In this document: positions 34,294-61,324 of the stretch, piece after piece | Layout: every line of letters starts with the position of its first letter | Numbering within the stretch: position 1 is the first letter of the stretch | DNA from: Bartonella sp. AU55XJBT | GTDB taxonomy: Bacteria; Pseudomonadota; Alphaproteobacteria; Rhizobiales; Rhizobiaceae | Length of the DNA stretch: 64,000 nt | Assembly (NCBI RefSeq): GCF_028618525.1 | Contig: NZ_JAQITC010000011.1 | Coordinates: 1-64,000, forward strand | Direction of reading: 5' to 3' | Position numbers and translations under genes: made by a program | The notes under the pieces: generated by a model | What the model saw: only the letters and a program-made list of their open reading frames with translations | Databases searched by the model: none | Told to the model about the DNA's origin: nothing

Positions 34294-35244
34294 TTACATC
34301 ATCAAAGATTTGTATTCCGTAATCCTTTTTTTGTGGGGGGAAACAGACACGGTTTTTGCCCCTTTTTCTGTTAAGTTTTTTTCAAACCTTTCGACAAGCG
34401 TTTCTTGCTTTTTGTTGACTTTTTCATGCGCTGTTTCCGGATTGGCTTTGAGATAGTGTTCGAGACGTTTTCGCCCTTGCGCATGTTTGTATAAACTGAC
34501 GGGAAGATAAGGATCTAACTTTTCAGGAGATAGAGGTGTTTTGGGTTCACATAATAGCCCCTTAATATTATCCTTGTGCAGTCTTTCTAATTTATCAGAT
34601 TCAAGATGAAGCTTTTTGGCAAGGCTTAAGCTAAACATCCCACATTCAGAAGAACTTCGCTGAATATCCATTTCAGCCATGGTAAAAGAATAAGGAGGAA
34701 GTTGAAGACATTCAAGGGTTTGATTGATTTTTATCCCTAGTCTCCCAGCACTAATATTATTGAATGTTGTCGGTTCAAACATGATCAAAGAAATTTTGTC
34801 ATCAACAATTTTATAATCTATTGCCGCAAAATGGATTCTGCTCCCCATATTGACGACAAATCGAGAAGAAGTTGCGCCACTTTCTATTGTTTCTTTGAGT
34901 GCGTGGGTAAGATCTTCAGCTGTAAGAGCCAATTTGAGATTCATCCCTGGGTATTTGCTGTTGGCTTTTTTGACGAGAGCCGGCAACAGTCTAATATCGG
35001 TATCTTCATAATCAGCAAAAATCCAACGGCCGGTGATAAGATCATCTTCTAAGCCTGCAATAATAGCTTGTAATTCTTCAGAATTTGGGGTGACATGTTC
35101 TTCTTTTGTTTGGAGGGAGTTTTGCTTTAAACGGGCAATAAGCTCTTCTAAGGATTCATTCGCGCTGACTTCTTCTTGTGCACTTGCTTCTTCTTGTGTT
35201 GGTGATGAACGAGAGGAAATGTCTTTTGAATCTTGTGGCTTCAT
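34294..35244 (-). CDS. YopJ-family Ser/Thr acetyltransferase effector
   Basis: 316 residues from MKPQDSKD (GGAGG site 8 nt upstream). Residues ~55-260 match YopJ: RIHFAAIDYK with catalytic His138, LIMFEPTTF with Glu157, and QRSSSECGMFSLSLAKKLH with Cys201. These are each 29 positions later than His109, Glu128 and Cys172 of Yersinia YopJ, so spacing is identical. DNIKGLL, LDPYLPVSLYKH and KRITEYKSL also match. YopJ proteins acetylate MAPK kinases and IKK in host cells, needing inositol hexakisphosphate. The Ser/Glu-rich first 50 residues could hold a secretion signal. It is next to phage lysis genes, consistent with cargo acquired by a prophage. Delivery route here is unknown; no BID domain is seen. 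Confidence 0.93.
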   Translation of the reverse strand: MKPQDSKDISSRSSPTQEEASAQEEVSANESLEELIARLKQNSLQTKEEHVTPNSEELQAIIAGLEDDLITGRWIFADYEDTDIRLLPALVKKANSKYPGMNLKLALTAEDLTHALKETIESGATSSRFVVNMGSRIHFAAIDYKIVDDKISLIMFEPTTFNNISAGRLGIKINQTLECLQLPPYSFTMAEMDIQRSSSECGMFSLSLAKKLHLESDKLERLHKDNIKGLLCEPKTPLSPEKLDPYLPVSLYKHAQGRKRLEHYLKANPETAHEKVNKKQETLVERFEKNLTEKGAKTVSVSPHKKRITEYKSLMM

Positions 35245-35863
35245 ACTATTAGCCTCCATATTGATGGTCGATCCGCAATATTATTTTCTTACATTTTGAC
35301 TAAACAATGTTTTGAAAGAAAGCTGTTGTTTCTTGAAAATTAAGAAAAAAGTCATCTTTGCGATTTTTTTATAAGATGACTTTTAAAACCAGAAACTTTC
35401 TTCATTTTCAAAAAATCCGCGTGTTTTTTACAGATCTTAACGCTATAAAAATTGGAGAAAATTGGCGGGTGGAATGTGCAATGTTATCTTTATATTTTAA
35501 GTTCTTTCTATCACATGGCTTATTTCAGTGAAGAGAGGACAGTCTTTTTTTCAACAGTTCTCCGTGTGAAAAAATGATATTATCCGCAAGAGCCGTTTAA
35601 CCAATATTGCCTATTTTATTTAAACATTCTTTTGGATTTTTTCCCAAAAAAGTCCCCAAAAGCCCTAAAAAGATTGTCTTCATTTTCTGTGATCAAATGA
35701 TCCCTGCTAGGCTCTAAAACACTTCTCCTTTGAGGGCGTGTGTTTCTTTGATAAGATTGATGTGTTTTTAGGGCGCGGGAGCTATGAGGCTTGTTTATGG
35801 CGCTTTATGGAAAAATTTTAAGGGGAATTGTTTGTGAATCCCAAGTGCTCCTTGGCTTAAAAG
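35245..35863. other. intergenic, no gene seen
   Basis: AT-rich upstream region of the YopJ-like gene. Part of the 35.70-35.82 kb segment is repeated imperfectly near 36.54-36.62 kb. Confidence 0.4.
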
Positions 35864-36770: not shown

Positions 36771-37352
36771 TTAGTGAATGCTCTTTGGGCTGGAACAGTC
36801 AAAATGTTTATCAAGGGCATCAAGAATAAGGCGCAGTGAGCCAACAAGCGTTGGCAACGGTTGATCTTCACTAACAAGATATTGTAATGCTGCTTGAAAG
36901 TTGTGTTGACGATGCAGATTTTGTGCTTCTTTAATCGCTTCTTGCATCGCTTCATAGCGTTGTGTTGCTCTTTCAACCCATTGCTTTTTTGTTTTCTCAT
37001 CGGATGCGCTATGCTTAAAGCCGTCATAATAGCCGTTTGGTAAACCTTTGGCACATAAATAGTCGTTTCTGATTTGCAAGTATTGTTGCGCCGTGTCATA
37101 TTGCTCTTGACTGATGCCTGATGAATCCCCTTTATAGCCCAGCAAACAAAGACGCCCAATATAGCTCCCCACAAGCGGATTTTTTGCTTCTTCAAGGCTT
37201 AAACCAAAGTGTTTTGCACGCATTTCAATGGCTGCTTGGAGCGCTGATTGAGATGCCAATTTGCTGGGGCCTTTGGCACGTGAAATACGGCCATTGGGCT
37301 CTCTCTGTTTGCCGGTTATTCTCGGTCTACCGCGTTTTTTACCTATTTTCAT
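36771..37352 (-). CDS. phage-type protein with basic GRPR start
   Basis: 193 residues from MKIGKKRGRPRITG. The N-terminus (KRGRPRITGKQREPNGRISRAK) is very basic and AT-hook-like. The middle has EEAKNPLVGSYIGRLCLLG and ISQEQYDTAQQYLQIRNDY, a pattern seen in prophage proteins of Rhizobiales. The protein at 54510-55076 shares the topology (ISQAQYKAAERFYFYW). Probably a DNA-associated phage protein; exact role unknown. Confidence 0.65.
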   Translation of the reverse strand: MKIGKKRGRPRITGKQREPNGRISRAKGPSKLASQSALQAAIEMRAKHFGLSLEEAKNPLVGSYIGRLCLLGYKGDSSGISQEQYDTAQQYLQIRNDYLCAKGLPNGYYDGFKHSASDEKTKKQWVERATQRYEAMQEAIKEAQNLHRQHNFQAALQYLVSEDQPLPTLVGSLRLILDALDKHFDCSSPKSIH

Positions 37353-38568
37353 GAATTTACCATTTGAATGAAAAAGAAACTGTCTGTTGCGGGGGACAGG
37401 AATTGTAAAAAGCACTTTAAAAAAATATTAGGGGGAGAAAATACAAAAGAGAAAAAATACGAAGGAGGGAAGAAAATACTGGGGGATATGAGCCGTTGCA
37501 AAGCCAAAAAAGAACGAAGCCTTTAAGTATAAAGAACAGCAAGGTTGTAGGGCAAAAAAATCATCTTTAAGATATTTCCTACCGTTTTTACGCCATCCCC
37601 ATCATGCTTATCCTTATCCTTATCTTTTTAGCATTGATCGTGGATGATTTGTTTTCTATAAATTTCTCAACTTCTCTGGAAAAAATGAAAAGAAATTTTT
37701 GTCACATGTGAATGTTTGTTACATGTGAATGAAAAAATAAAGATCCATGTAGCTCCTTCCTTATTTTTATAGAGTCCTTTACAGATACACCCCTCTTAAA
37801 TTAAAGATAATCCTTTATAGAGGAGCTTTGCCTGATGTGAGGGGGAAGAGAATGCTATAAAACAACCTTATTCATATTCGTCATTATAACATAAGATGTC
37901 CTATATTTTCAAATAAAATAATCATTTAACGGCTCAAAATAAATGATCAACGATCAAGTAATTCGGTTTAGCGAGTTTCTTTTATGTATCCTTTATAGAA
38001 GCTAAAAGTTCCTTTTGCTGTTTTTGGGCTGAGCATGAGAAGGGGGCTGTCGTTTAAAGGGTGCGATGCCCTATCCAAAGAAGCTGTATAAGAAAATCCT
38101 TAGGGAAAAGGGGTCTTTAAGATAAAAGAGGCGTTTATAAAGCTGGGGGGCTTGTGAGAGACGAAACCTTTCTTGTTAATGTTAAAAGAGGATCTTTTTA
38201 ATTTAAGAAATTTTAAAATGAGAATGTAAAAAATTTTAAGGATGCTGTCGGGGCATTTTAGTTCATCGGTTGTTTTTTCGCCAGTGGGGTATTATAGAAG
38301 TAGGGTGTTCTAAGGGGGTGTTCTCGAAACAGTGTCCTTTAGGGAAAGCTCTCTGGGCTTGTGTGATCGATCAAGAGGGGGAAAAGGGGGCGGAGCTTGT
38401 AAGCGTTGAGAGAGTATCTGGTGTCAGGTGTTCAAGGAATTTAAAAAAACTTAAAAAAAACTATTCATGCTTGCTTCATGATGAGAAGAGTGCTAAGCAG
38501 TTCCCTCACGCTGATTGCGTGTTATCAAATATTGAGGCGTGAACATTTTAGACGTGGGGGGTATCCGT
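37353..38568. other. gene-poor, AT-rich region
   Basis: More than 1 kb without a supported gene. A 90-codon plus-strand frame at 38270-38542 has no ribosome site or domain. This stretch probably contains the promoter of the membrane-protein array. Confidence 0.4.
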
Positions 38569-39060
38569 ATGATCAAAGATCAATCACAACAGTCATCTGC
38601 CTGTGAGGAGAAGGTTTTTGGTTCGCAATCCGTGTTGGGCCAATCGGCCGCTTTTAAAAAGTGGATGGTTCTCTCCACAAAAGATTATGTCATCATTTGT
38701 TGCTTGGCTATCCTCTTATTGGTGCTTTTTGCCACTTCTCTCTCTACGAAGTCTTGGGAAATTTTTGACATTCCTAAAGAACAGCTTCAAGCAATGAAGC
38801 ACCAAAATTTTCAAGAAATGATTCAAAACTCTTTTAAAAATCCTATCATTGAACATCTGCGTGATGCGGGGTGGAAGGGTGTTTGGGCTTTTTTATGTTT
38901 TATACCGTCAATAATTTTGAGTTCTCTTGTTATTTTTTTTCCACTCTTTTTTATTTTCCTCGCCATTTTTAAACGGGACGTGAAGGAAATGATGCAGCTG
39001 TGGGAAACAGTGTCAGAGCAGCAACCTTTAGACAACCAATCTCTCAACACAAGATTATAG
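38569..39060 (+). CDS. array membrane protein, A module
   Basis: 163 residues from the ATG at 38569 (GGGGGG site upstream; GTG at 38539 less likely). After a polar N-terminus the segment AAFKKWMVLSTKDYVIICCLAI starts the first membrane helix, matching FKKWLSFSNKDYVI in the protein at 43.9 kb. A longer loop (~45 residues) separates it from a second helix (IILSSLVIFFPLFFIFLAIF). The C-terminal tail is polar. First gene of the array. Function unknown. Confidence 0.75.
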   Translation: MIKDQSQQSSACEEKVFGSQSVLGQSAAFKKWMVLSTKDYVIICCLAILLLVLFATSLSTKSWEIFDIPKEQLQAMKHQNFQEMIQNSFKNPIIEHLRDAGWKGVWAFLCFIPSIILSSLVIFFPLFFIFLAIFKRDVKEMMQLWETVSEQQPLDNQSLNTRL

Positions 39061-39069
39061 GGGGAATAT

Positions 39070-39615
39070 GTGAACGCTTCTTTCATCATTGGATGGTTGA
39101 TTGGCGCAGGGACAACAATCTTTATTTGTGGTGCATGTTGCTCGGTACTCTTTTCTACCGCGAAGATTGTTTTGACACTTTATTATTCTTTGATAAAACG
39201 GACAGTTTTGTTATTGGAAATGCGACGGAAATTAAACAACAGTCCAGCGCAGAATTTGAGGCGTGATCAAATAGAGGGTAGGGGACAGACAGCCCTTGCG
39301 ACACAATTGAGTGCTCTTTCTTTTAAAGAATCTTTGGAACTTTCAAGAGGAGAGTCTCGAATGCTTTTTTTGATCACTTTCGTTATGTTGGTGCTTTTCG
39401 TTGGTTTTATCGTTTTTGCAGCTTTTCTTCCAAAATCTGCGATTTTTTTGCACAATCATACGCCTCTATTGCTTTACGTTATTGACTTTGTCATGGGGCT
39501 GCTGTTGTGGGTCTGGTCGTGTATTGTGGTGGCTTTGCCTATCATTTTAATTCTCTATAGTCTCCTTCAGTGTGGCGTGGAAAAAACAGTCAAAAAATTA
39601 GAAATATTTGCTTGA
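39070..39615 (+). CDS. array membrane protein, B-A fusion
   Basis: 181 residues, GTG start with GGGGGAA ribosome site. N-terminal B module: one membrane helix then ALYY-like TLYYSLIKRTVLLLEMRRKL. From ~80 an A module follows (ALSFKESLELSRGESRMLFLITFVMLVLFV ... ALPIILILYSLLQ), with two helices and short charged tail. 9 bp after the preceding gene. Function unknown. Confidence 0.72.
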   Translation: MNASFIIGWLIGAGTTIFICGACCSVLFSTAKIVLTLYYSLIKRTVLLLEMRRKLNNSPAQNLRRDQIEGRGQTALATQLSALSFKESLELSRGESRMLFLITFVMLVLFVGFIVFAAFLPKSAIFLHNHTPLLLYVIDFVMGLLLWVWSCIVVALPIILILYSLLQCGVEKTVKKLEIFA

Positions 39616-39689
39616 GCAGAGAATGGAAATAATGAATTTCATCTCAAGGTGGTAGAGAAAAAAGGCGATAGAGAAAAAAGGGGAACGTT

Positions 39690-40256
39690 ATGATAAAATA
39701 TTTGGCTCTTTTAGGGGTCCTCATTATTGTCATTTTAATGTTTATGGTCCTTGTTAGGTTTCCTTACCTGTTGATCAAGAACATGAGGGTGTCCTTTAAA
39801 CTTGCTCGAGAGTTGAAAAAGAATACGACGCAACAAAAGCAAGCCATACAACAGTTGCGTAATGACTGGGAAGAAATGAAAAGACAAAATCTCACGCATA
39901 AGACCCTTGAGGCAAAAATGCGTTTGCTTAATTTCAAAGAATCTCTGCCTCTTTATGCAAAAGAATGTAAAATAATCTTTTCTATTCTTATTCTTATTTT
40001 TCTTCTAGAAATTACTTTCTCTACCACGAATTTTGTATGGTGGAAGAGTGATAGCGTTTCCTTTATCATGCTGATCTGGACCTCTATATGGATAGGAACT
40101 CTGCTCGTTGTTCCGATCATTGGGGTCATGGGTATAAAATTAACCAGAAAATTAAGAGAAACGCTTCTAAAACTGGACGAAGCCATAGAACAGCGCGATC
40201 AGGCAATTCGTGTGCAGAATGCGCAAAGTGAAAAAGAGCAAGGGGAAACAAAATGA
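39690..40256 (+). CDS. array membrane protein, B-A fusion
   Basis: 188 residues. B module: helix IIVILMFMVLVRFPYLL, then VSFKLARELKKN and a coiled coil (QQKQAIQQLRNDWEEMK). A module: LNFKESLPLYAKECKIIFSILILIF, second helix, and C-terminal coiled coil LTRKLRETLLKLDEAIEQRDQAI. Stop overlaps the next start by 4 bp (ATGA). Confidence 0.75.
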   Translation: MIKYLALLGVLIIVILMFMVLVRFPYLLIKNMRVSFKLARELKKNTTQQKQAIQQLRNDWEEMKRQNLTHKTLEAKMRLLNFKESLPLYAKECKIIFSILILIFLLEITFSTTNFVWWKSDSVSFIMLIWTSIWIGTLLVVPIIGVMGIKLTRKLRETLLKLDEAIEQRDQAIRVQNAQSEKEQGETK

Positions 40257-40450
40257 CCAGTAGTCTTATAACATTAGCAGCCTGTTCTATTCTGTTATTT
40301 ACGCTCTTCAATGCTTTAATATGGGTGCCCATTGTGGTCATTTATTATCTGTTTATCAAGCGTGCGCGGCTCTATTGTCGTGTGAAAAAAGAGCTGAAAT
40401 GTGTGCTCAATGAACGTGATAGCGCTTTACAACAGATCGCTCAAAAGTGA
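40253..40450 (+). CDS. array membrane protein, B module alone
   Basis: 65 residues: membrane helix (CSILLFTLFNALIWVPIVVIYYLF) followed by KRARLYCRVKKELKCVLNE, the clearest form of the B signature Y-C-x-V-K-x-E-L. ATGA-coupled to the gene before it. Confidence 0.78.
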   Translation: MTSSLITLAACSILLFTLFNALIWVPIVVIYYLFIKRARLYCRVKKELKCVLNERDSALQQIAQK

Positions 40451-40462
40451 AAAAATGAAAAA

Positions 40463-40807
40463 ATGAAAAACAGCAGCCTGTTTGATCAAAAAAAGCTTTC
40501 GCTTGTTTGGGCCGACTATAAAAAAATATTCACTCTTTCGACCGTCATGGTGACACTTCCGACAATTATAATGATTATCGTGAAGCTATGGAGAAGGAAG
40601 GACTTTTTTTCTATGACTGTCTTAGAGCCATTGGCATGGGTACTTGCCGGGGCTTTTTTATTCTTACCCATTGTTTTTATAATGCTTTTTATTTTAAATC
40701 ATCAGTTGAAGAAAATGATGCGACAACTGGAAGAAGAGGTTGAGCAGAAAAAAACACTGATGATCCTTTCTCATGAACTCTCTCATGAAGAGGAGGGAGA
40801 AAAGTGA
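40463..40807 (+). CDS. array membrane protein, A module alone
   Basis: 114 residues: WADYKKIFTLSTVMVTLPTIIMIIV helix 1, then AWVLAGAFLFLPIVFIMLFIL helix 2, and the coiled coil HQLKKMMRQLEEEVEQKK. Matches A modules at 41.4 and 41.9 kb. Followed by a decayed soluble-domain pseudogene. Confidence 0.75.
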   Translation: MKNSSLFDQKKLSLVWADYKKIFTLSTVMVTLPTIIMIIVKLWRRKDFFSMTVLEPLAWVLAGAFLFLPIVFIMLFILNHQLKKMMRQLEEEVEQKKTLMILSHELSHEEEGEK

Positions 40808-40829
40808 AGAAAAAGAAGAAAATAAAGCA

Positions 40830-41330
40830 TTCTATGCTGTGCATATCTTGAGGGGCTTTCGCGCTTTGAGGGGCGGTGGTGAGACCCTTTGAGCACAAAA
40901 GCTTTAGGGACGGTGAGAGACTGGGCTTTGAGACACACATAAAATCCATCTCCACCATGCTTTGAGGATGGTTTAAGAGAAGGTGCGTGGCTAGGCTTTG
41001 GTGATGGCTTGATAACTTAAGCTGTTTTCAAGACAAAGCAACGCGCGGATGATTTTCTTGAACCGCTTTGCTTCTTTTTTTGAAAGGTACTTCTCTTGGG
41101 AAAAAAACACCACTCAGAATTTTAGAGCCAGACATTTCAATTTATGCCATAGAAAGATCTCTTTTATAAAAAATGTCTCGAGGAGACAAAATAGGTATCT
41201 AAGACAATAGGGATACACTGTGAGGGATGAAAACATGATGGTTGAAATCAATGGGAAAAAAGTAGACTCTCATGCACTTCTGATATTGTTTTTATAAAAG
41301 ATGGGGGATAAAAGCGATTGATATAAAAAT
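40830..41330 (+). pseudogene. decayed copy of the array soluble domain
   Basis: Two segments match the intact gene at 42296-43444. Near 40838-40945, GCATATCTTGAGG...CACAAAAGCTTTA and GGTGAGAGACTGGGCTTTGAGACA correspond to the part coding RYLAALALVGDVETL and SFMNGERLGFET. Near 41200-41330, AGGGATACACTGTGAG and TGGGAAAAAA...GATATAAAAATTG correspond to its C-terminus (GYTV, DGKKARP, MDVKI). The middle and the whole N-terminal helix are lost. Confidence 0.75.
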
Positions 41331-41394
41331 TGTGGAGGACAAAAGCGTCGATTCATGAAAATAGCTTAAAATTTTAGACAAATGAGAGATAAAA

Positions 41395-41745
41395 ATGAGG
41401 CATCAGGGGGGACATTCAATATCGGATGAAGAACAACGGTCTTTTTCTTTGGAAAAAGCGTTTCTAACACGCAAAAATTATAAAATTATCTTTTGCTTTG
41501 CCTTTATTCTTGAGGCTTTTAAAGTGGCACTTTTTATGTTGTTTGAGTGGGATTTAACAGGGTGGTGGAATTATAGCCTCTTCATTCTCATATTCATATT
41601 GATTGTTCTATCCGTGCTTCTTTTTATATTGATCCCTGTTGCTTTTGTGGTTCGTGTTACTTTTACGCGTTTGTTGAAAAAAAAGATTGCTCAGTTGGAG
41701 CAAGCAATTGGCCAAGCGGAGAAAAATTCCTTCTTAACAAAATAA
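41395..41745 (+). CDS. array membrane protein, A module alone
   Basis: 116 residues: SFSLEKAFLTRKNYKIIFCFAFIL helix 1, LFILIFILIVLSVLLFILIPVAF helix 2, and VTFTRLLKKKIAQLEQAIGQ coiled coil. Almost identical in its last 40 residues to the A protein at 41919, showing recent duplication or gene conversion. Confidence 0.82.
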   Translation: MRHQGGHSISDEEQRSFSLEKAFLTRKNYKIIFCFAFILEAFKVALFMLFEWDLTGWWNYSLFILIFILIVLSVLLFILIPVAFVVRVTFTRLLKKKIAQLEQAIGQAEKNSFLTK

Positions 41746-41766
41746 GAGCGTAAAGAAGAGGGCAAA

Positions 41767-41817
41767 ATGAATATACGGATTTTTTTATGCTTTGTCGGAG
41801 CGCTTTTATGGGTGTGA
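41767..41817 (+). pseudogene. B-module remnant
   Basis: A 16-codon frame (MNIRIFLCFVGALLWV) with hydrophobic start stands where a B gene is expected between the two A genes. It is cut off before the basic tail. Confidence 0.45.
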
Positions 41818-41918
41818 TGTTTGATCAAGGGAAAAAATGTGCGGTTGATCTAAAAGCGATTGATCGTGGTAAATTGAATTCATTGTAAGGACGCTTTTTA
41901 GATCAATGAGGGGTAAAA

Positions 41919-42299
41919 ATGAGTCACCATGAAAAAAATGCACCATGGGATGGGAAAATACGCGCTTTTTCTTTGGAAGAGGCGTTTCTAACACGCAAAA
42001 ATTATAAAGTCATCTTTTGCATGACTTTCATTCTTTCAGCTTTGAGAACAGCGCTCTTCTTACCAGCATTGCTTGGGGTGAAGTTGACAGAGTGGGAAGC
42101 CAGTGTCGCGGCTTTTCTCTTGCTTATCATGCTGTTTATATTAGATTTAATTTTTATATTGATCCCTGTTGCTTTTGGGGTTCGTGTTACTTTTACGCAT
42201 TTGTTGAAAAAAAAGATTGCTCAGTTGGAGCAAGCAATTGGCCAAGCGGATAGCGGCTACTTATCGGCAAACGAGCACGTGAAGGGGAGGGGAAAATGA
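41919..42299 (+). CDS. array membrane protein, A module alone
   Basis: 126 residues: AFSLEEAFLTRKNYKVIFCMTFIL helix 1, FLLLIMLFILDLIFILIPVAF helix 2, VTFTHLLKKKIAQLEQAIGQ coiled coil. Stop overlaps the following B-soluble gene by 4 bp (ATGA), implying coupled translation and partnership. Confidence 0.83.
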   Translation: MSHHEKNAPWDGKIRAFSLEEAFLTRKNYKVIFCMTFILSALRTALFLPALLGVKLTEWEASVAAFLLLIMLFILDLIFILIPVAFGVRVTFTHLLKKKIAQLEQAIGQADSGYLSANEHVKGRGK

Positions 42300-43444
42300 T
42301 AGATATAGTTGTTTTATTCTCGTGGGGTGTCGGCATTCTTTTCTTCACGCTGCTTTCTGCTGTGTGCATGATGTTTATTTGGGCATTGTATTACTCTGCT
42401 TTCAAGCGGGTGAGATTGTATTGCCAAGTGACAAAAGAATTAAGACGCGTGGCTTATAAACAACCGGTTGCTTTTGAGCCGTCCAGTGGGGAAACACCGA
42501 TGATGAAGCCATCATTTGAGGAAAAAGAGTTCAAAGCGTTTTCTCTTGCTGATGAGGAAATTCTCACGATGGAAAGTGCAACAGCACTTTTAAAGAGTTT
42601 GGGGGGGAGGGTAGAAATTGAAGGAAAAGGGGATCATTTGGCAACCTTCTTTTTACCAGATCGTGAAGTACAGTTTCTTTATAATGCTGAGAAGGGGTAT
42701 CTGCAATTTGATTGTGCCATTGCGGTGGTTTCTGGTATCCATGCGGCGGCTTGCCAAACGATTGATCCTTATAATTCTGGAAGATTGATTGCTCTCGAAT
42801 TGAGTTTTGATCTGAAGGGATTGGAAATTTTTGAAGAAAAGGTCAGTGCGGGGTGTTTACGCCATGCGCTTGAGAAAGCTTTCGAAAAGGCTATGGGCGA
42901 GGTTGATCTTGGCAACATGCTTCGTTCTCAATATCACATTCTTCCGTGGGAACACAAAGTTGTGGACCCTAAGTTTTCATCTTATTCGCTGCGTTATCTT
43001 GCGGCTCTCGCTTTGGTCGGTGATGTTGAAACTTTAGACTCCTATCACAAAAGCTTTATGAATGGTGAGAGGTTGGGCTTTGAGACAAGCATTACAGAAG
43101 AGCATCTGGAACGCGCGATAGCGATTGCTAAGGCGGTAGAAGAGACAAAACAGCCCAGTTATGATCTGCTTCAACAGACGGCAAAGAGTTTTTCTATGGA
43201 GGTGGAGAGTTATGACTATTTTAGAATCACAGATCCAAATTTGTGCAATAGAAGACGCTCTGGTTACGAAAATTTGCTCGAAGAAAAAAGAGAAGAATTA
43301 AGGCAACAGGGATATACGGTTTACGAAAAGGACACGATTTGTGAGGTTGATGGGAAAAAGGCTCGTCCCCATATTCTTTACATGAAGGATGGGAAAGTAG
43401 AATATATGGATGTAAAAATTGGGATTGATACAGAAAATTATTGA
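42296..43444 (+). CDS. array B module fused to ~300-residue soluble domain
   Basis: 382 residues. N-terminal membrane helix (VGILFFTLLSAVCMMFIWALYY) and B tail RVRLYCQVTKELRRV, linker, then a soluble domain from ~75. Its first part (DEEILTMESATALLKSLGG...FFLPDREVQFLYN) has the alternating helix-strand look of YbjN or secretion-chaperone-like folds; inference. Later conserved blocks are HAAACQTIDPYNSG, SQYHILPWE, ALALVGDVETLDSY and the C-terminal RITDPNLCNRRRSGYENLLEEK. I do not recognise a catalytic motif. Paralogue at 48993-50150. Confidence 0.82.
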   Translation: MIDIVVLFSWGVGILFFTLLSAVCMMFIWALYYSAFKRVRLYCQVTKELRRVAYKQPVAFEPSSGETPMMKPSFEEKEFKAFSLADEEILTMESATALLKSLGGRVEIEGKGDHLATFFLPDREVQFLYNAEKGYLQFDCAIAVVSGIHAAACQTIDPYNSGRLIALELSFDLKGLEIFEEKVSAGCLRHALEKAFEKAMGEVDLGNMLRSQYHILPWEHKVVDPKFSSYSLRYLAALALVGDVETLDSYHKSFMNGERLGFETSITEEHLERAIAIAKAVEETKQPSYDLLQQTAKSFSMEVESYDYFRITDPNLCNRRRSGYENLLEEKREELRQQGYTVYEKDTICEVDGKKARPHILYMKDGKVEYMDVKIGIDTENY

Positions 43445-43512
43445 GAAAAATAAAGAATTTAGGTAAATTAAATAAAACTTAAAATGGCGCATGCAAAATG
43501 CAGAGGGGATCA

Positions 43513-43887
43513 ATGCAGGAGAAAAACGCAATATTTGAAGAGTCTTTCTTTTCATTCAAAAAATTTATGCTCTCTTTAGTGGAAAGCTGTAAGGGGGTGG
43601 AAAGGGATCAAATGATCGGGCGCTCCTTTTATACAATGTTTTATACGGGCCTTATCATGATGGCTTTAGAAGTTCCTGCCGGTGCAGAGTCTTTGGGACA
43701 GCCGTTGCAGTGGACAAGATGGGAGGGGATTGGTTCTCTTATTTTTCTCTTACCGATGTTGATTTGGTTTTGTCTTTTCACACCGTTTCCGATCCTTTGG
43801 GGAGTTCGTCGTTTTAAAGAGCGTAAATTGGAAAAAACAAAGCAAAAACTGGAAGCAGAAACACAGCCGTTAAAGATCAATCGGTGA
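43513..43887 (+). CDS. array membrane protein, divergent A module
   Basis: 124 residues from the ATG at 43513 (AGAGGGG site). SFKKFMLSLVESC leads the first helix region (FYTMFYTGLIMMALEV), a second helix (IGSLIFLLPMLIWFCLFTPFPIL) follows, then a basic tail KERKLEKTKQKLEAE. Fits the A topology though sequence is divergent. Confidence 0.7.
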   Translation: MQEKNAIFEESFFSFKKFMLSLVESCKGVERDQMIGRSFYTMFYTGLIMMALEVPAGAESLGQPLQWTRWEGIGSLIFLLPMLIWFCLFTPFPILWGVRRFKERKLEKTKQKLEAETQPLKINR

Positions 43888-43888
43888 G

Positions 43889-44500
43889 ATGATCGCCATG
43901 AGAAATGAGGATGTTGCCCTTTTTATTTTTTTTCTACCGTTTGGCTGTTTTTTTCTCGAGGTTGTGACGGTTTTTGCTCTTTTTGTCATGATGATGATTG
44001 TGGCGCCTTATTATTCTTTATTCAAGCGTTTGAGGTTCTATTTCAGAGTAAAAGAACAAAGACGTCTGATGAAAGAACAGCCGCAGCGTTTTTGTTTCTC
44101 TAAAAAAAGCTGCAAAGAGATCGTGCAGCAAAACTTAGCACTGAACACAGAAATAAGTTCCCATGCGTTTAAAAAATGGCTCTCTTTTTCCAATAAAGAT
44201 TATGTCATCCACGCATGCCTCTCTTTCATCATTATGGTGTTCAAAGTTTATGTCTATGTGACTTTCTATACAAAGATGAATTTTTCGATCGATGAGAAGA
44301 GATTTATCTCTATGTACATTTTCTTTTTTTACTTTGTTGTTTTCTCGGCATGTCTTTTGGCAACGGTTCCTGTTATGGTGGTCCTTCGTGAAATTTTAAC
44401 CTCTCGGCTAAAAAAGAAGATTCAGCAATTGGAAGAAGTGACTAAAACCCCTCAATTAATTTATAAAGGGGAGAGGCAATTTATAAAAGAAAGAGGGTAA
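43889..44500 (+). CDS. array membrane protein, B-A fusion
   Basis: 203 residues. B module: FFLEVVTVFALFVMMMIVAPYYSLFKRLRFYFRVKEQRRLMKE. A module from ~95: HAFKKWLSFSNKDYVIHACLSFIIMVF, second helix ACLLATVPVMVVLREIL, coiled coil SRLKKKIQQLEEV. Start may be the Met at 43889 or 43898. Ends 1 bp before the next start. Confidence 0.78.
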   Translation: MIAMRNEDVALFIFFLPFGCFFLEVVTVFALFVMMMIVAPYYSLFKRLRFYFRVKEQRRLMKEQPQRFCFSKKSCKEIVQQNLALNTEISSHAFKKWLSFSNKDYVIHACLSFIIMVFKVYVYVTFYTKMNFSIDEKRFISMYIFFFYFVVFSACLLATVPVMVVLREILTSRLKKKIQQLEEVTKTPQLIYKGERQFIKERG

Positions 44501-44501
44501 A

Positions 44502-44678
44502 ATGCATTACGAGATGGCGGCAGCTGCCACGGTGGTTTTGATGGCTCTGTTGGGGGGGCTTTTGGATTTGTTCTTAACGGTACCCATTGTGGCGCTGTAT
44601 ATTTCTTTTATCAAACGTTTGATATCCTATTATAAGGTTACACGGCAATTAAATGCAGCACTGAAAAAGCGCATGTAG
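44502..44678 (+). CDS. array membrane protein, B module alone
   Basis: 58 residues (MHYEMAAAATVVLMALLGG). One helix running to LTVPIVALYISFIKRLISYYKVTRQL, the B signature. GAGGG site 6 bp upstream. Last gene of the first half of the array. Confidence 0.7.
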   Translation: MHYEMAAAATVVLMALLGGLLDLFLTVPIVALYISFIKRLISYYKVTRQLNAALKKRM

Positions 44679-44834
44679 CCCCCCTTATATCGTGAAGGAA
44701 TCCTTTTAGATCATGTCATTGCTTCCATGGTCTTGAAGGGGCATGGAGGGGCTATGGTGCACGCTGTTGTTTCTTTCATTTTACATTTGCTTTTTCCTTT
44801 TCCTTTGTTTGAAGGGGATTAAATCAATAGCCTT

Positions 44835-44900
44835 GGGATGGTATTAGCTTTCTACGGTTTTCTGTAAATAATTAAAATCGTAAAAACGTGAAACTGTAAT
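44835..44900 (-). repeat. dispersed repeat, distant inverted copy
   Basis: Reverse complement contains TTACAGTTTCACGTTTTTAC and GATTTT...TTTACAGAAAACCGTAGAAAG, the same element as at 31382-31886, 13 kb away. Confidence 0.7.
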
Positions 44901-45359
44901 TCCAAGGGTGTGTGCGTTGTTCAAGAGTATGACGGTTGTGGGAAGGATAGTCGGCTGAAGAGGGCATGAATGGTGCGGTAAAGGTGAATGGAGACAGGCT
45001 ATTTGGGAGAAGGAGCTATAGGGCTGCAGGTGAAACGATAGAGAGCGTCTAGGGAAGAGCTGTAAATAAGCTGGAATGGCATTAGTGATGGGAAAGCTGT
45101 TGTGGGGAGCGTGAGGTTTGAGGAAGATGTGAGGAAGGCATGGGGGAAGAGAGTGGAAGTGTGGGGAGGTGTCTTGTACCAATTTACTGAAAGATTTGGC
45201 TTTTAAAAGGATTGTCTTTATTGTTTTCTCATGACTGCCATGGAGGCGTGTTTATTTTCAATGCCCATGATTTGAGAGAGTGTTGTTTAAGAGAAAGTTG
45301 GGAGCACAGAGTTTGAAGGGCGCTTGCTTGGTCAAGAAAAAGCAAAAAGAGAGACTGAA

Positions 45360-45875
45360 TTACAAGTTTTGTTTCTTCATATGATTTTTTATGGCATCGA
45401 GGATCTGTTGACTTATTTCCTGATGGGTTAGCCAGCGTGAACCTTTTGACGTTGTCTTTTGTCCTATTTGAATGGGAATGAAGTCAACCTTGTTTTTGCG
45501 TGCGCACTCAGTGATCATTTGATCATGAACGTTGGAACAAAAAATGTGAAGAATGCACGGTGGTTTAGGCAAAAGAGCTAACTGTTCAATTAATGCGCAA
45601 GAAAAGGCAAAGGCGGATGAATGAATCCATAATATGCAATATTTTAAATTATGCCATTGGCTCACGGCTTCTAAAAATTGTGTCTGTAATGCTGCACAAT
45701 CATAATCCAACGGGATGCACAGATGCTGTTTTTGGAATGCTTCAAACTGGACTTTGTGGGAAAGAAAGCGTGCGGCGATAATGGCTTCTTTTGGCTTGAG
45801 GGATTGACAAAAAGGAGAAAGCATCCCTGTGCCCCCTACGATTAAATAACGATAATGCGCATCCTTTTTTTGCAT
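45360..45875 (-). CDS. Rossmann-fold (SDR-like) oxidoreductase, short
   Basis: 171 residues from MQKKDAHYRYLIVG (GGGGTGGGGA ribosome site; frame to 45920 less likely). YLIVGGTGMLSPFCQSL at the start is a G-x-x-G-x-L/M nucleotide-binding loop as in short-chain dehydrogenase-like proteins found in several bacteria. ILWIHSSAFAF and HIFCSNVHDQ fit later beta-alpha units. No Y-x-x-x-K catalytic pair, so it may only bind a nucleotide. It interrupts the array on the opposite strand. Confidence 0.6.
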   Translation of the reverse strand: MQKKDAHYRYLIVGGTGMLSPFCQSLKPKEAIIAARFLSHKVQFEAFQKQHLCIPLDYDCAALQTQFLEAVSQWHNLKYCILWIHSSAFAFSCALIEQLALLPKPPCILHIFCSNVHDQMITECARKNKVDFIPIQIGQKTTSKGSRWLTHQEISQQILDAIKNHMKKQNL

Positions 45876-45920
45876 GTCCCCACCCCTTTTCTTTAAATGC
45901 GTTGCTTTAAAAATGTGCAC

Positions 45921-46648
45921 ATTTCATCAGAAAGCCGTTCACAATGTGTTTGTATCTCTTTCCTTATAACTTTCCAAGGAAAACCTTTATCATCTAAAGA
46001 AAAATCCTTGTTGGAAGAGGTTATTTGACATCATGCGTAACTCATAAAGCGTATACACCACCGGCAATCAATGCGCAGATGGTGGTGCGCATTTTGTGTG
46101 GTCCTGCCATGAAAGATAAGCCCAACTGGTTGATTTCAAAAGGCATTATAAGCGCATTTTTTTAAACACACGACTATGAGCCTTGAAAAATGGAATTTGC
46201 GAGAAGAGACCCCTCGGCTGCTGCGATGGTTTTTACAAATTGTGGCGGTGGGATATGGCGGTTGGGGGGGCTGGTTGAGACATTATGATGGTGTGCGATG
46301 AGACTGTTAAAGCCATGGGGGTGATGGAATGAGGTGCTGAATTTTTATAAATTTATCAGAGCGTTATCGCTATACCATTCATGAGGACCTATGAAATGCG
46401 GGTGATACGCGTTGGTTTGGAAGTGTTGAGCGCGTGCTTCTTTAAAACAAGACCGCGAAGGGGTGGTATTTAAGATTGACACCATAAAGATTGAGAATAT
46501 CCGTGTCTTTGGGCAATATTGGGAATATCCCGTGTATTTTAGAGCATTCTCTGTAAGGACTTCTATTGGGTGACAATGCGTTTTACTTAAGAGATGATTT
46601 GTGTCAAGAAAGAAAAAGAATACGTATTTTGTAAACAAGGAAGAGCAA
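45921..46648. other. gap between array halves
   Basis: No supported gene. Contains only short frames; probable promoter region for the genes from 46649. Confidence 0.4.
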
Positions 46649-47209
46649 ATGAAGGGGGAAAATTCAGCCTCAAATCAAAAACCGCGCTCTTTTGCTCTGG
46701 AAGGGCCCTTTCTTTCTTATAAAGAGCATAGCATCATTTGTCTTCTTTCTATCCTTATAGCGATAAGTCATAGAATTCTTGTGATCCCCTTAGACTTCAA
46801 GTGGTCGTTGACCGTATCGCAGGATAGCACTCTTTTAGCATTCTTTGTGCTGCGTGAAGTCATTATGGTCTGTGTGTTTGCCTCTATACCTGTTCTCTTG
46901 GGGCTTTATCTCATCTTAACACATTTGTTGAGAAAAAACATTCAGCAGTTGAATGAAATTCTTCAGCAACGGGGTCAAAAAACCAGTCAACAAAATCATC
47001 CCGCAAAAAACGATAGAGAAAAAATAAACCGTGTTTTTATCGTATTCCTTTGCTTTATCGTTTTGTTTGAAGTCTCTTTTACCACTGTGGTTGTCATGCT
47101 TATTCTGGAATTTTATTCTTTTTTCTTTAAGCGCGTGAGAATCTATTGCCAAGTGAAAAAGGAATTGAAACGCGTGAAAGAAAAGCCTAACAGAGCGCTT
47201 GCGCAGTGA
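46649..47209 (+). CDS. array membrane protein, A-B fusion
   Basis: 186 residues from the ATG at 46649 (AAGGAAG site). A module: SFALEGPFLSYKEHSIICLLSILIA, helix 2 VCVFASIPVLLGLYLIL, THLLRKNIQQLNEILQQ coiled coil. B module: FIVLFEVSFTTVVVMLILEF then KRVRIYCQVKKELKRV. The order of fusion is the reverse of the genes at 39-40 kb. Confidence 0.8.
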   Translation: MKGENSASNQKPRSFALEGPFLSYKEHSIICLLSILIAISHRILVIPLDFKWSLTVSQDSTLLAFFVLREVIMVCVFASIPVLLGLYLILTHLLRKNIQQLNEILQQRGQKTSQQNHPAKNDREKINRVFIVFLCFIVLFEVSFTTVVVMLILEFYSFFFKRVRIYCQVKKELKRVKEKPNRALAQ

Positions 47210-47299
47210 TCATGAGGGAGAAGAGGCAAGGTTTACGCATTCTCGTGACACAAGAAGAGGGGGGAGAAGAATCATCAGGCAAAGAGGGGCAAGAAGTCT

Positions 47300-47360
47300 G
47301 AGGGGAAAGAAGCCCATTGTCGTTTGTGATGATGATGAGGCTCTTATCATTTGGAAAGTA
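47300..47360 (+). pseudogene. possible soluble-domain remnant
   Basis: CGTTTGTGATGATGATGAGG followed by CTCTTATCATTTGGAAAGTA resembles the start of the soluble domain at 49245-49290 (VDYDDHEILTIES). Match is short. Confidence 0.35.
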
Positions 47361-47486
47361 AGAGCGTTTTTTTAATCTGGGGGGGATTTACCAGAAAACA
47401 AGGGAATGGCATATATCGCACTTTTCGTCGTGCTTAAAAGAGTGGGCGTGAGAAAAGAAATATGTTTGTCTAAAAAGGGAAGAGAA

Positions 47487-48020
47487 ATGAAGGGGAAAAA
47501 TTCAACATTTTATAACGGACTGCACGATTTTTTTGAGCAAGAGTTTTCTTCTATGCAAGAATGTGTTGTTCTTTGTTTCCTCTCACTCAGCATTGAGCTG
47601 GGGAACAGGATTTTCTTTTTTCCAGCTTTGGAACAAGAAAAATTGACAGGGTGGCAAGATACACCCCTTTTTCACTCTTTCTGCCTACTTTGGGAAGTGA
47701 GTGTCGTGTGTGTTGTTGCCTTGATTCCAATTATGTTGATTGTCTGCATAATATTGTGGCGTTTGTTGAAAAAAAATACTCGAAAATTGAAAGAAATACA
47801 CCGGCAACGGGGGGAAATAATCCGTCACCAAAAGCATCGGTATAAAAAGGGTGATAGGGTAAAAATAGATGATATTCTTGTCATGGTATTTGGTCTCGTA
47901 CTTATGCTCGTGACACTTTGGATTGCGTGTTTTCCCATAACGATTTTGGAACTTTATTATGGTGTCTTTAAGCAGGCGAGAAAATATTACTGTTTAAAAC
48001 AACAACTGAAAAGCGTGTGA
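47487..48020 (+). CDS. array membrane protein, A-B fusion
   Basis: 177 residues from the ATG at 47487. A module: FFEQEFSSMQECVVLCFLSLSIE, helix 2 VVCVVALIPIMLIVCIIL, WRLLKKNTRKLKEIHRQRG tail. B module: ILVMVFGLVLMLVTLWIACF then LYYGVFKQARKYYCLKQQL. Sister of the gene at 46649. Confidence 0.78.
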   Translation: MKGKNSTFYNGLHDFFEQEFSSMQECVVLCFLSLSIELGNRIFFFPALEQEKLTGWQDTPLFHSFCLLWEVSVVCVVALIPIMLIVCIILWRLLKKNTRKLKEIHRQRGEIIRHQKHRYKKGDRVKIDDILVMVFGLVLMLVTLWIACFPITILELYYGVFKQARKYYCLKQQLKSV

Positions 48021-48605
48021 AAGAACAGGAGATAGCGTTTGAGGAATCATGAGCGGGCAAAAAATGGTTGAAGAAATGATGAGAAATTTGAGATTGATGG
48101 TTATTGCTCTCTATCACATTTTGCCTCTTAAGATGTTTTGGGGTTCTTTATGGTTTTGTCCTAAAACTTTGCTGAGCAGCGTTGAGGGTGGACTTTTGGG
48201 GCAGAAAAAGCTTGAATTGTCGACCGCCCTTGATTAAAGGACTTGAATTGTCGACTGTCATTGTTTAAAGGCAATACGGGTATTAAAGGCAGTGTGGGCT
48301 GAGAGGTATGAGGTTCTAAAGCCTAGAGTGACAAATTGGGATTTCCTTTATCGTTTGAGTGGAGAGGGTGGTCAAGGGGCTAAGGCGCCACGAATATTAT
48401 GATTTCTTTATAATTTTTATCATGACACAAGTCATAACGGCTTGTGCACTTTTCTTAATTCCGGATTCCAGTGATATTGGGGTTTTGCATGCATCATCAT
48501 GCGTAAATTGAAAAAAAAGATCCAGAAACGAGAAAAAAACAATCTTTGTGCGAGAGCAAATAAGCTCTCTACCGTATGGGTTTTTTCAAAGAGTGAGAGG
48601 GAAAA
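48021..48605. other. gap with possible soluble-domain remnants
   Basis: No intact gene. GCTCTCTATCACATTTTGCC near 48101 resembles the sequence coding SQYHILP in the soluble domain. A direct repeat of CTTGAATTGTCGAC occurs near 48210 and 48243. Confidence 0.35.
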
Positions 48606-48980
48606 ATGCAGGAGCAAAATTGGGTATCAGAGCAAGAAGCGCATAAAAGAGCGCATTCTTTTTCGTTTCAGCAAGCGTTGCTTTCAGCAAAGGATTATAA
48701 AATTATCTTCGCTATTGCGGTTATTATTATCATCTGGATAATGATGCTAAGAATACCAAATGTCTTAAATTGGCAGCTGATAGGGTGGCAACATGTTGTG
48801 CATGCCGTTATCCTGAAAACAACGGACTTCATAATCGGTTGTGCCCTTTTATTGATTCCGGTGATGTTACGGCTTCGTAAAAAAGTGACGTGTGAATTGC
48901 AGGAAAATATTCAAAAACTAGACCAAGCGCTCTCTGAGCGAGAGCAAATAAGTTCTCTGTCGCACGGGCTTTGTAAATAA
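48606..48980 (+). CDS. array membrane protein, A module alone
   Basis: 124 residues: FSFQQALLSAKDYKIIFAIAVIIIIWIMML helix 1, FIIGCALLLIPVMLRL helix 2, CELQENIQKLDQALSEREQ coiled coil. GAGGGAAAA site. Located 12 bp before the B-soluble gene, the same pairing as at 41919/42296. Confidence 0.8.
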   Translation: MQEQNWVSEQEAHKRAHSFSFQQALLSAKDYKIIFAIAVIIIIWIMMLRIPNVLNWQLIGWQHVVHAVILKTTDFIIGCALLLIPVMLRLRKKVTCELQENIQKLDQALSEREQISSLSHGLCK

Positions 48981-48992
48981 TGAGGGGAAAAA

Positions 48993-50150
48993 ATGAACAT
49001 TGATCCTATCGTCGTACGTTTCTTAGATCCCCAGTTCTGGGTGATGATTGCTGTTTTCATGGTCATTATCATGCTTGTTTTGGCTCTTTATATCTCTGTC
49101 TTTAAACGGATGAAAATGAATTTCCAAGTGAAAGGCGCGTTGGAAGAAGTGCTGAAAGAAAATGATCTGGCAATGCAACAGTTTTGGAAAGATGAAGCTG
49201 TGGTGCAGAAGAGGCGTTTGAAACTAAAGGAAAAGGAAAAAGAACCCTTTGTCGATTATGATGATCATGAAATTCTCACGATAGAAAGTGCAACAGTGCT
49301 TTTAAAAAGCTTGGGGTGGTCCGTGGACATTGAGGGAAAAGGAGATTATTTGGCAACGCTCTTTTTACCTGATCGTGAAGTGCAGTTTCTCTATAACGAA
49401 GAACAAGTGGAAGACTTTTCACCCTTTGATCGCGGGCTTCTCATTATGAGTGGTATTTTTGCGGCCGCTTGTCAGACCATTAATCCTCATAATTCTGGGG
49501 TTTTGCCAACGATGTTTATCAATTTTGTGCCCAATGGATTGGAAATTTTTGAAGAAAAAGTAAGCGTTGCACGTTTTAAAAAAGCCCTTGATAAAACTTT
49601 AAAATGGACAATGGAAGATGATTGTTTGCATGAAATGCTTTGCTCTCAATATCGTATTCCACCTTGGGAAAAAGACTCTTTAACATGGTCAACGGCTGAA
49701 GCAGAGTTGGCTCCTTATGCTTTGCTGCATCTTGGTGCTCTTGCCTTGCTGGGGGATGTGGAGACTTTAGGTTCTTATGACGAACGTTTTGCGGCAGGCG
49801 AGACACTTGGCTTTGATGAAACCATTGAAAAAGTTCATCTGGAACGCGCGATGGTAATGGCGCAAGAGGTGAAAAAGGCTGGAAAATTCAGTTACGGTCT
49901 GCTGGAACAGGTTGCTCTGATGTTCTCTATAGACGTGGAGGGCTATCAGATTTTTAGAGTGAGAGACCCTAATTTGTGCAATAAAAAACGCACTTTGCAT
50001 AAAAATTTAGTCGAGGAGAAAAAACAAGAATTAAGGGAACAAGGATACACTGTGAGTGATAAACCATGTGTCTTTGAAAAAGGGGGCGTAAAATATTCCC
50101 CGGATATTACTTATATCAAAGATGGTGAACCTGCATTTATGGATATATAA
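48993..50150 (+). CDS. array B module fused to ~300-residue soluble domain
   Basis: 385 residues, paralogue of the 42296 gene. Helix VMIAVFMVIIMLVLALYI, then VFKRMKMNFQVKGALEEVLKE. Soluble domain begins DHEILTIESATVLLKSLGW and keeps FLPDREVQFLYN, FAAACQTINPHNSG, SQYRIPPWE, ALLGDVETLGSYDERF and RVRDPNLCNKKRTLHKNL. The end is shortened to MDI because two extra bases (TA) before the MDVKI-equivalent codons bring in a stop; the paralogue continues nine residues further. Confidence 0.82.
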   Translation: MNIDPIVVRFLDPQFWVMIAVFMVIIMLVLALYISVFKRMKMNFQVKGALEEVLKENDLAMQQFWKDEAVVQKRRLKLKEKEKEPFVDYDDHEILTIESATVLLKSLGWSVDIEGKGDYLATLFLPDREVQFLYNEEQVEDFSPFDRGLLIMSGIFAAACQTINPHNSGVLPTMFINFVPNGLEIFEEKVSVARFKKALDKTLKWTMEDDCLHEMLCSQYRIPPWEKDSLTWSTAEAELAPYALLHLGALALLGDVETLGSYDERFAAGETLGFDETIEKVHLERAMVMAQEVKKAGKFSYGLLEQVALMFSIDVEGYQIFRVRDPNLCNKKRTLHKNLVEEKKQELREQGYTVSDKPCVFEKGGVKYSPDITYIKDGEPAFMDI

Positions 50151-51130: not shown

Positions 51131-51454
51131 TTATGCTTTAGTAAAAATCAGCTGTATGAAATATATAATAAGGGAGCCTAAAAAGCTAGCGAAGGCATTT
51201 AATAAATTTATTCCTTTTCCATATATATTATCTATTAATGCTTGTTCTGATGCAGTTCTATTATTTATTTTCAGTATATTCAATGTATCCGATGGGCTCC
51301 CTACGGGTTTAAAAAACTGTAAATGCGTTTTCTCACCAGTATAAGGAGCAACAATAGGAGAGGGCTGTTTATTGACTATACGATCAGACTTTTGAATCGC
51401 AAGAGCTAAACCACTTGTAATCGCCCCCGCTATAAAAAAATATCTGATATTCAT
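51131..51454 (-). CDS. small two-helix membrane/secreted protein, copy 1
   Basis: 107 residues. N-terminal hydrophobic segment (YFFIAGAITSGLALAI) is a signal or anchor, the middle is polar (SDRIVNKQPSPIVAPYTGEK), and the C-terminus has a second helix (FLGSLIIYFIQLIF). Nearly identical N-terminal 65 residues to the copy at 51587. Each copy has its own terminator. No known family recognised. Confidence 0.65.
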   Translation of the reverse strand: MNIRYFFIAGAITSGLALAIQKSDRIVNKQPSPIVAPYTGEKTHLQFFKPVGSPSDTLNILKINNRTASEQALIDNIYGKGINLLNAFASFLGSLIIYFIQLIFTKA

Positions 51455-51586: not shown

Positions 51587-51898
51587 TTATATTTTAACAG
51601 CAATTATTTTTATAAAATATACAATAATCAATCCTAAAAAACTAACTATTGCATTCAATAAACTTTTTGCTTTTTCATATATATTGTTTATTGATTCTTG
51701 TCTGTTATTTATTCTCAGTATATTCAATGTATCCGAAGGGCTCCCTACGGGGTTTAAAAACTGTAAATGCGTTTTCTCACCAGTATAAGGAGCAACAATA
51801 GGAGAGGGCTGTTTATTGACTATACGATCAGACTTTTGAATCGCAAGAGCTAAACCATTTGTGATTGCCCCTGCTACGAAAAAATATCTGATATTCAT
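51587..51898 (-). CDS. small two-helix membrane/secreted protein, copy 2
   Basis: 103 residues, tandem duplicate of the gene at 51131. The first ~65 residues differ by few changes (ITNGLALAI, LNPVGSPSDTL), while the 3' third is diverged and lacks four residues (QESINNIYEKAKSLL). Upstream DNA (CTATAAATAAATATCGATA) is also duplicated. Confidence 0.65.
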   Translation of the reverse strand: MNIRYFFVAGAITNGLALAIQKSDRIVNKQPSPIVAPYTGEKTHLQFLNPVGSPSDTLNILRINNRQESINNIYEKAKSLLNAIVSFLGLIIVYFIKIIAVKI

Positions 51899-58358: not shown

Positions 58359-58409
58359 TCGTGATCTTATGCGTTTTGGGATTCTATTTTGCTGTTCTTG
58401 CTATTCAAT

Positions 58410-61322: not shown

Positions 61323-61324
61323 TC

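Follow-up and report, generated by a model that had tools for sequence, protein, structure and literature searches.

What is an array of small, alternating membrane proteins doing in a Bartonella genome? The window analysed here, 64,000 nucleotides of Bartonella sp. AU55XJBT (contig NZ_JAQITC010000011.1, positions 1 to 64,000), carries between 38569 and 50150 a run of genes built from two kinds of membrane module, A and B, which occur singly or fused to one another, with B joined in two genes to a soluble head, S. Our analysis revealed that A and B form distinct families, that the array repeats a two-gene unit of A followed by B-S, that its arrangement is conserved in other Bartonella, and that S is a DUF6990 domain, linked in this genus to loci of contact-dependent growth inhibition (CDI), followed by a tail that profile comparison identifies as homologous to the C-terminal toxin core of CdiA (CdiA-CT). 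From these findings we infer the topology of the modules, a complex between A and B, an immunity role for DUF6990, toxin binding and protection of the cell, and we tentatively favour the view that the array is a tandemly amplified inner-membrane immunity or decoy system against CDI nuclease toxins.

Two membrane module families in a repeating unit

The array comprises the following features, all but one on the plus strand; a tilde marks fusion within one gene.

38569..39060, plus: A gene with a long loop between its helices (open reading frame, ORF; leave-one-out profile 40.2 bits)
39070..39615, plus: B~A fusion gene (profile matches: B 39115-39255, A 39316-39612)
39690..40256, plus: B~A fusion gene (B 39693-39836, A 39927-40202), its stop overlapping the next start as ATGA
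40253..40450, plus: headless B gene (profile match 3.8e-24; ratio of nonsynonymous to synonymous substitution rates, dN/dS, 0.24 over 17 pairs)
40463..40807, plus: A gene (profile match 1.8e-23)
40876..41288, plus: decayed S head in three broken pieces (three S matches in two frames; DNA repeats D11 and D14)
41395..41745, plus: A gene (profile match 1.8e-29)
41919..42299, plus: A gene with an ATGA overlap with the next, B-S gene (profile match 1.1e-30; ORFs)
42296..43444, plus: B-S gene 1 (B helix 42305-42463; DUF6990 at about 42581-43132, PF22499 at 64.3 bits; truncated CdiA-CT-like core at about 43271-43423)
43498..43887, plus: A gene, the most divergent A (24.7 bits)
43889..44500, plus: B~A fusion gene (B 43925-44083, A 44162-44455)
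44502..44678, plus: headless B gene (profile match 3.4e-17)
45360..45920, minus: short-chain-dehydrogenase-like gene, not a module, dividing the array in two (NF006168 at 77.3 bits, under the cut-off of 168)
46649..47209, plus: A~B fusion gene (A 46691-46978, B 47030-47188; a longer GTG frame starts at 46601)
47406..48020, plus: A~B fusion gene (A 47529-47816, B 47871-48017)
48043..48237, plus: possible decayed S remnant, weak (DNA repeat D16 at 48097-48125 only; no profile match)
48368..48469, plus: decayed A piece (profile match 7.9e-4)
48606..48980, plus: A gene (profile match 2e-30)
48993..50150, plus: B-S gene 2 (B helix 49005-49163; DUF6990 at about 49296-49865, PF22499 at 53.2 bits; truncated CdiA-CT-like core 49974-50147)

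Read in the three forward frames, the first sub-array runs A, B~A, B~A, B, A, decayed soluble head, A, A, B~soluble, A, B~A, B, and the second, beyond the minus-strand gene, A~B, A~B, decayed A piece, A, B~soluble. This bears out the module order proposed in the initial annotation, apart from the placement of the decayed soluble head (40876-41288), the decayed A piece (48368-48469), the unrelated minus-strand gene between the sub-arrays, and a B remnant at about 41745-41918, which no profile match confirms. Both ATGA overlaps that it had reported, at 40253 and 42296, are present, and both lie at A-to-B junctions.

A is a two-helix membrane module and B a single long membrane helix. Leave-one-out profiles recovered all 11 A modules, at 24.7-86.4 bits, and all nine B modules, at 13.9-53.0 bits; of 500 shuffled versions scored for every module, the best reached 7.1-11.9 bits for A and 6.5-12.7 bits for B. 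The weakest B members are B1 at 13.9 bits (best shuffle 7.4) and B2 at 16.5 bits (best shuffle 10.8). On B modules, the maximum of the A profiles was 10.8-13.8 bits, over the best shuffle in 10 of 11 cases and under the weakest A (24.7), and B profiles gave at most 9.6 bits on A modules. Because cross-class scores stay well under own-class scores, A and B are separate classes, with some membrane composition in common. Neither matched a curated family over its cut-off when ten array proteins were scanned against Pfam and NCBIfam and seven against PADLOC and PHROGs; the earlier statement that no known family could be recognised stands for A and B in these libraries, and fails for the soluble head, which is Pfam DUF6990. 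The alternation of the modules, described at the outset as almost strict, holds in 313 of 369 neighbour pairs, against 191.5 expected, across 21 related array sequences.

Junctions between modules (ORFs of at least 50 aa, gaps under 1500 nt) reveal the unit that is repeated. The median gap at A-to-B junctions (n = 127) is 13 nt, with 96 within 40 nt and 10 showing a 4-nt overlap, and that at B-to-A junctions (n = 51) is 270 nt, with 20 within 40 nt and four overlapping by 4 nt; in one related locus, L058, complete units stand in tandem as A, B~S~A, B~S. Since A-to-B gaps are tight, B-to-A gaps wider and the unit of L058 lies in tandem, the repeat unit is A followed by B(-S). Tandem duplication of this pair alone explains the alternation, and duplication together with decay of the A-B operon pair would explain why both phases of fusion exist. 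In B~A fusions, a B copy that lost its S would now read through into the A of the following unit; the A~B type would have arisen by loss of the stop codon inside one unit.

Conservation was followed in two sets of Bartonella regions. The first comprises 20 array regions (L041-L060) from genomes with a membrane-anchored DUF6990 gene, to which the window was added to give 21 sequences; the second comprises 20 regions (L061-L080) from 19 genomes with A matches (G053 twice; G031 and G037 also in the first set). Of the 42 genomes in which the A profile has matches, the two sets together cover 37. These 42, among 71 Bartonella genomes, have 1 to 19 matches each to the A profile, B being profiled in the fetched loci only, and every organism name given in a protein search for A (102 rows) was Bartonella. 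The opening run A, B~A, B~A, B, A is found in 18/21 and 12/20 sequences of the two sets; it is not seen in L045 and L048 because both cut-outs start inside the array, and L054 is without it. A~B fusions occur in 16/21 and 6/20. B and S share a single open frame in 20/21 and 1/20; the shared frame is sometimes short (138 aa in copy 2 of L051, a short tail in L057), and in the second set S is mostly left as fragments. The 382-aa protein of the array is 99% identical to its homologue in Bartonella sp. AU16XJBT and 83-92% identical to those of four other Bartonella, which places the window in this genus. The profile searches of Bartonella genomes that the initial annotation had proposed thus find its pattern again (A in the 71 genomes, B in fetched loci), and the outcomes that it had named as refuting, modules unrelated among genes or a pattern confined to one strain, did not occur.

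Pairwise dN/dS medians against the window, over reciprocal best hits (up to 18 pairs per gene), were 0.38-0.66 for A-containing genes, 0.24-0.27 for headless B, 0.28-0.34 for B-S genes and 0.17-0.45 for four flanking genes; these ranges do not include two short fragments, an A piece of 50 aa for which no pair could be used and an S piece of 53 aa that gave 0.29 over two pairs. Net constraint acts on the array, and least on its A parts. Fusion and length of the A~B gene at 46649-47209 are kept in 14 of 15 reciprocal best hits, and architecture and length of that at 47406-48020 in only 6 of 13.

The charge after the B helix has a median of +4, which suggests that the C-terminal end of B is cytosolic. 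Such an orientation would suit B~A fusions and not obviously A~B fusions, so that the topology is something of a puzzle. Gene order and fusions make a two-part A-B membrane complex plausible; the one structure model of an A-B chain was of low confidence.

The DUF6990 head and its truncated toxin core

Both soluble heads match PF22499 (64.3 and 53.2 bits) against a curated cut-off of 27, and the structure models of B-S gene 1 had mean per-residue confidences (pLDDT) from 79.2, the best of five, to 60.9, the worst. DUF6990 is over cut-off in 35 of the 71 Bartonella genomes, partly in long proteins, and each of the 12 long proteins that were split into domains contains four copies. Fourteen loci with such long proteins were fetched, and a sequence pattern located the long frame in 12. 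In 8 of these 12 the four-repeat protein is immediately preceded by a CdiA-type C-terminal frame, with 0-12 nt, by our own reading, between the stop of that frame and the first ATG; this is the position of a CdiI, directly downstream of cdiA-CT. SUKH-like frames precede it in L083, L090 and L093, and a piece of one in L081. An entire locus, L082, encodes a ShlB/FhaC-type transporter, a 2541-aa protein (TPS, haemagglutinin, DUF637, PT-VENN), the four-repeat DUF6990 protein, and LHH-nuclease and SUKH cassettes; its CdiB and CdiA domains were confirmed.

At 60 bits or more, a profile built from eight CdiA-CT cores found 25 matches spread over 14 of the 71 genomes, and 25/25 lie upstream of a same-strand DUF6990 match, within 1.3 kb. 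As eight of the 25 are profile seeds picked via DUF6990, the fair linkage count is 17/17, among which some matches overlap each other (G004, G069). When 397 genomes drawn evenly across the order were searched, DUF6990 appeared only in G003 and G117; the latter, outside the 71 Bartonella, has a single DUF6990 gene (L095:9384-14702) behind DUF637/PT-VENN and Imm11 genes, in a series of toxin/immunity cassettes. Its position beside CdiA-type and toxin/immunity genes makes it very probable that DUF6990 serves as an immunity domain in polymorphic-toxin loci. Array S copies have a mean identity of 50.6% with repeat 4 of the four-repeat proteins and of 21.5-22.7% with repeats 1-3, and in a midpoint-rooted tree of 79 domains they form one clade, nearest repeat 4; S shares its domain with a protein in the CdiI position.

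Past DUF6990, the heads extend by a toxin-like stretch of about 60 residues. The CdiA-CT profile matches this tail in 30 of 31 B-S proteins, at 12.1-39.6 bits (the best of 1240 shuffled tails reached 10.1 bits, the next 3.9); only the B~S~A fusion in L058 was not matched. A profile-profile comparison (hhalign) of tail and CdiA-CT gave 97.3% over 59 columns. As judged from these alignments, the tail is homologous to the CdiA C-terminal toxin core. Run over the six frames of the window and the 14 CDI loci, the profile found the eight CdiA-CTs and the tail of the second head only (E = 9.3e-8, the sole window match under 1e-3); the tail of the first head scored 16.6 bits at residues 326-376 in the tail search and lay under threshold in the larger one.

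The toxin itself has only sub-threshold Pfam matches to PD-(D/E)XK-type families, and we call it PD-(D/E)XK-like because of these weak matches and its motif. Excluding four heads that fit neither of two tail types, PD or K of the motif is absent in 15/15 type-1 tails; among type-2 tails the motif is broken in 4/11, and 7/11 keep the PD and K residues but end just after, at a point past which the toxin continues for about 80-100 residues. None of the tails of these two types has both the complete motif and the complete core of an active PD-(D/E)XK nuclease, and the truncated core in the head is probably inactive. In a short comparison, type-1 tails are nearest the CT of L091 (10.9 of 20 positions) and type-2 tails nearest that of L088 (11.1), a hint that the tails go back to two subtypes of the toxin. 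S may have arisen once, when the end of a CDI immunity gene and the start of the following toxin cassette were captured by a B gene. The soluble domains had been described at first as cargo or effector heads; DUF6990, its alliance with CDI immunity loci and the truncated CdiA-CT core make an immunity-type head the better reading.

Possible functions of the array

If the array is an immunity or decoy system, Bartonella would have amplified in tandem one two-gene unit, A then B-S, in which A would be an integral-membrane hairpin with a charged C-terminal helix, and B a long membrane helix whose positively charged stalk bears, or formerly bore, the cytosolic head S. Within S, the terminal domain of a CDI immunity protein would be followed by the N-terminal half of a CdiA-CT nuclease core. 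Assembled at the inner membrane, A and B could place immunity-type heads where CDI nuclease toxins reach the cytosol; according to the accessible part of PMC11630599, CDI toxins enter it by way of hijacked integral membrane proteins. The tethered heads would bind or block toxins as membrane immunity proteins or decoys, and a head might meet the toxin first. Repeated duplication would have created the many variants, with S lost from most copies, the membrane parts kept and the fusion phases arising as by-products. We consider rather doubtful a more specific version, a diversified two-subunit membrane trap whose immunity-pseudotoxin heads seize CDI toxins at entry and guard against foreign toxins that the cell does not encode. 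Retention of S in genomes without a multi-DUF6990 protein fits defence against the toxins of others, but also chance.

A number of observations weigh against an immunity or decoy function. Besides the B-S tail, no CT of the CdiA-CT type was found in the six frames of the window, where the array accordingly does not stand directly downstream of a cdiA-CT as a CdiI does; the 14 CDI loci searched hold no A or B module, and the ten flanking ORFs that were scanned no CdiA or CdiB domain. Tabulated by eye among the matches listed, 7 of the 20 first-set genomes have no multi-DUF6990 protein, and 10 genomes that have one retain only S fragments in the fetched array stretch. The immunity role of DUF6990 is read from gene position, support for the S clade is only 0.685, several tails (12.1-13.9 bits) score near the best shuffle (10.1), and the lowest-scoring tail, of L057, matches only the stretch before the motif. 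The quick evolution of A-containing genes (0.38-0.66, flanks 0.17-0.45) fits relaxed constraint and conflict equally. Finally, A and B without a head are still present in genomes where S is reduced to fragments, and so the membrane part may have another job.

That other job could itself be immunity. In that case A and B would themselves be the immunity proteins, in a homogeneous polyimmunity array directed at membrane-acting, ionophore CDI toxins; A would act as two-helix CdiI hairpins do in blocking such CdiA-CTs, and S would have been added later as a passenger. A is small, two-helix, membrane-borne, quick to evolve and present in tandem copies, headless A and B remain where S decayed, and the known hairpins, in the accessible text of PMC11630599, are likewise two-helix proteins and highly polymorphic. 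Against this, a search of 14 CDI loci found neither A nor B next to toxin genes, the array proteins scanned have no family match over cut-off, and A retains a B partner as single CdiI proteins do not. We judge this explanation, including the hairpin-like action of A, unlikely. Possible, though doubtful, is a role of the membrane pair in envelope or host interaction, outside CDI, with S acquired once through accidental fusion to part of a CDI locus and now being lost. B and S share one frame in only 1/20 second-set sequences, where S fragments and A/B remain, and the CDI loci searched hold no A or B module. In contrast, the frame is shared in 20/21 of the first set, which was picked for membrane-anchored DUF6990, and the window B-S proteins, at two paralogous positions, keep median identities of 81% and 79% at dN/dS of 0.28 and 0.34; because the B-S frame is kept, identities are high and dN/dS is low, we regard S as maintained in the first set. 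Very unlikely, in our view, is a selfish or neutral tandem repeat whose copies are duplicated and decay by unequal crossing-over and have no lasting function. Pseudogene pieces are indeed visible at 40876-41288 and 48368-48469, dN/dS rises to 0.66 (flanking genes 0.17-0.45), and two genes keep architecture and length in only 6/13 and 10/17 reciprocal best hits. Yet thirteen other array genes (at least 58 aa) keep both in 70-100% of up to 19 such hits, gene order is kept in 18/21, and every dN/dS median is below 1.

Related systems and the surroundings of the array

With CDI immunity (CdiB/CdiA/CdiI) the array shares a domain found in Bartonella behind CdiA-type genes, near SUKH and LHH cassettes (Imm11 in G117), but it carries one copy of DUF6990 where the proteins in the CdiI position have four, this copy is joined to part of a toxin and anchored in the membrane with an A partner, and no cdiA-CT was found adjoining. 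Like the homogeneous polyimmunity loci in the accessible text of Zhang et al. 2012 (PMC3482391), it consists of tandem paralogues of the same kind, some fused, in a genus that has orphan toxin/immunity cassettes; unlike them, it alternates two membrane subunits, most copies are without an immunity-type domain, and its immunity function is putative. The CdiI proteins against ionophore toxins, as the part of PMC11630599 available to us describes them, are highly polymorphic two-helix hairpins of 72-100 residues with both ends cytoplasmic. A resembles them in size and two-helix membrane form and differs in pairing with B, and no ionophore toxin partner was seen; no Pfam or NCBIfam family matched A over cut-off, and no profile of the hairpin family itself was run.

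From the accessible portion of PMC2697382, B. grahamii has 'membrane protein' islands, BgGI 3 and BgGI 6, the former specific to the rodent-associated lineage, as well as a 7-fold fha repeat. One of these islands of membrane proteins may be this array; in that portion they are given by content only, without modules, DUF6990 or a link to CDI. The function of Bartonella filamentous haemagglutinin (FHA) is called unknown in the accessible text of PMC2847970, with adhesion assumed by analogy, and in that of PMC4927057 B. henselae is one of the species whose islands include cdi genes. DUF6990 was not mentioned by name in the literature searched; tandem immunity-type domains are already known, and neither the alternating membrane pair nor the immunity-pseudotoxin head was found described there. 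The present analysis provides a testable role for DUF6990, which Pfam lists as of unknown function, and for two unnamed membrane families, bears on the function of Bartonella FHA, and suggests that immunity can be membrane-tethered and made of an immunity domain plus a disarmed toxin piece. Bartonella fha loci (L082:11716-19570, L083, L088) hold series of orphan CdiA-CT frames with SUKH-type immunity cassettes, a polymorphic-toxin arsenal; LHH nuclease was found in the one such series scanned.

The gap between the sub-arrays (44679-45359) contains a stretch with a translation like ...FYDFNYLQKTVES, repeated many times in the gaps of relatives; in L045 the gap measures 8.7 kb. The short-chain-dehydrogenase-like gene that follows it (45360-45920) has relatives in 16/40 array sequences. 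The window also encodes groEL, fumC, a YopJ-family gene and prophage-type genes. The YopJ-family acetyltransferase-like gene (34294-35259, minus strand; PF03421 at 247.8 bits) lies near the array and has relatives in 13/40 array sequences (tblastn). Phage families of unknown function, phrog_15385 and phrog_21451, are represented at 36771-37415 and 54510-55076 (both minus strand), in 28/40 and 16/40 array sequences. A tandem pair of small, closely similar proteins is encoded at 51131-51454 and 51587-51898 (minus strand); for that of 51131-51454, neither Pfam nor NCBIfam gave a match at E <= 0.01, and relatives occur in 28/40 array sequences. To the right of the array, 56418-63129 is occupied by prophage-type genes (a Toprim/DnaB-like protein, DUF1376 and a YqaJ recombinase).

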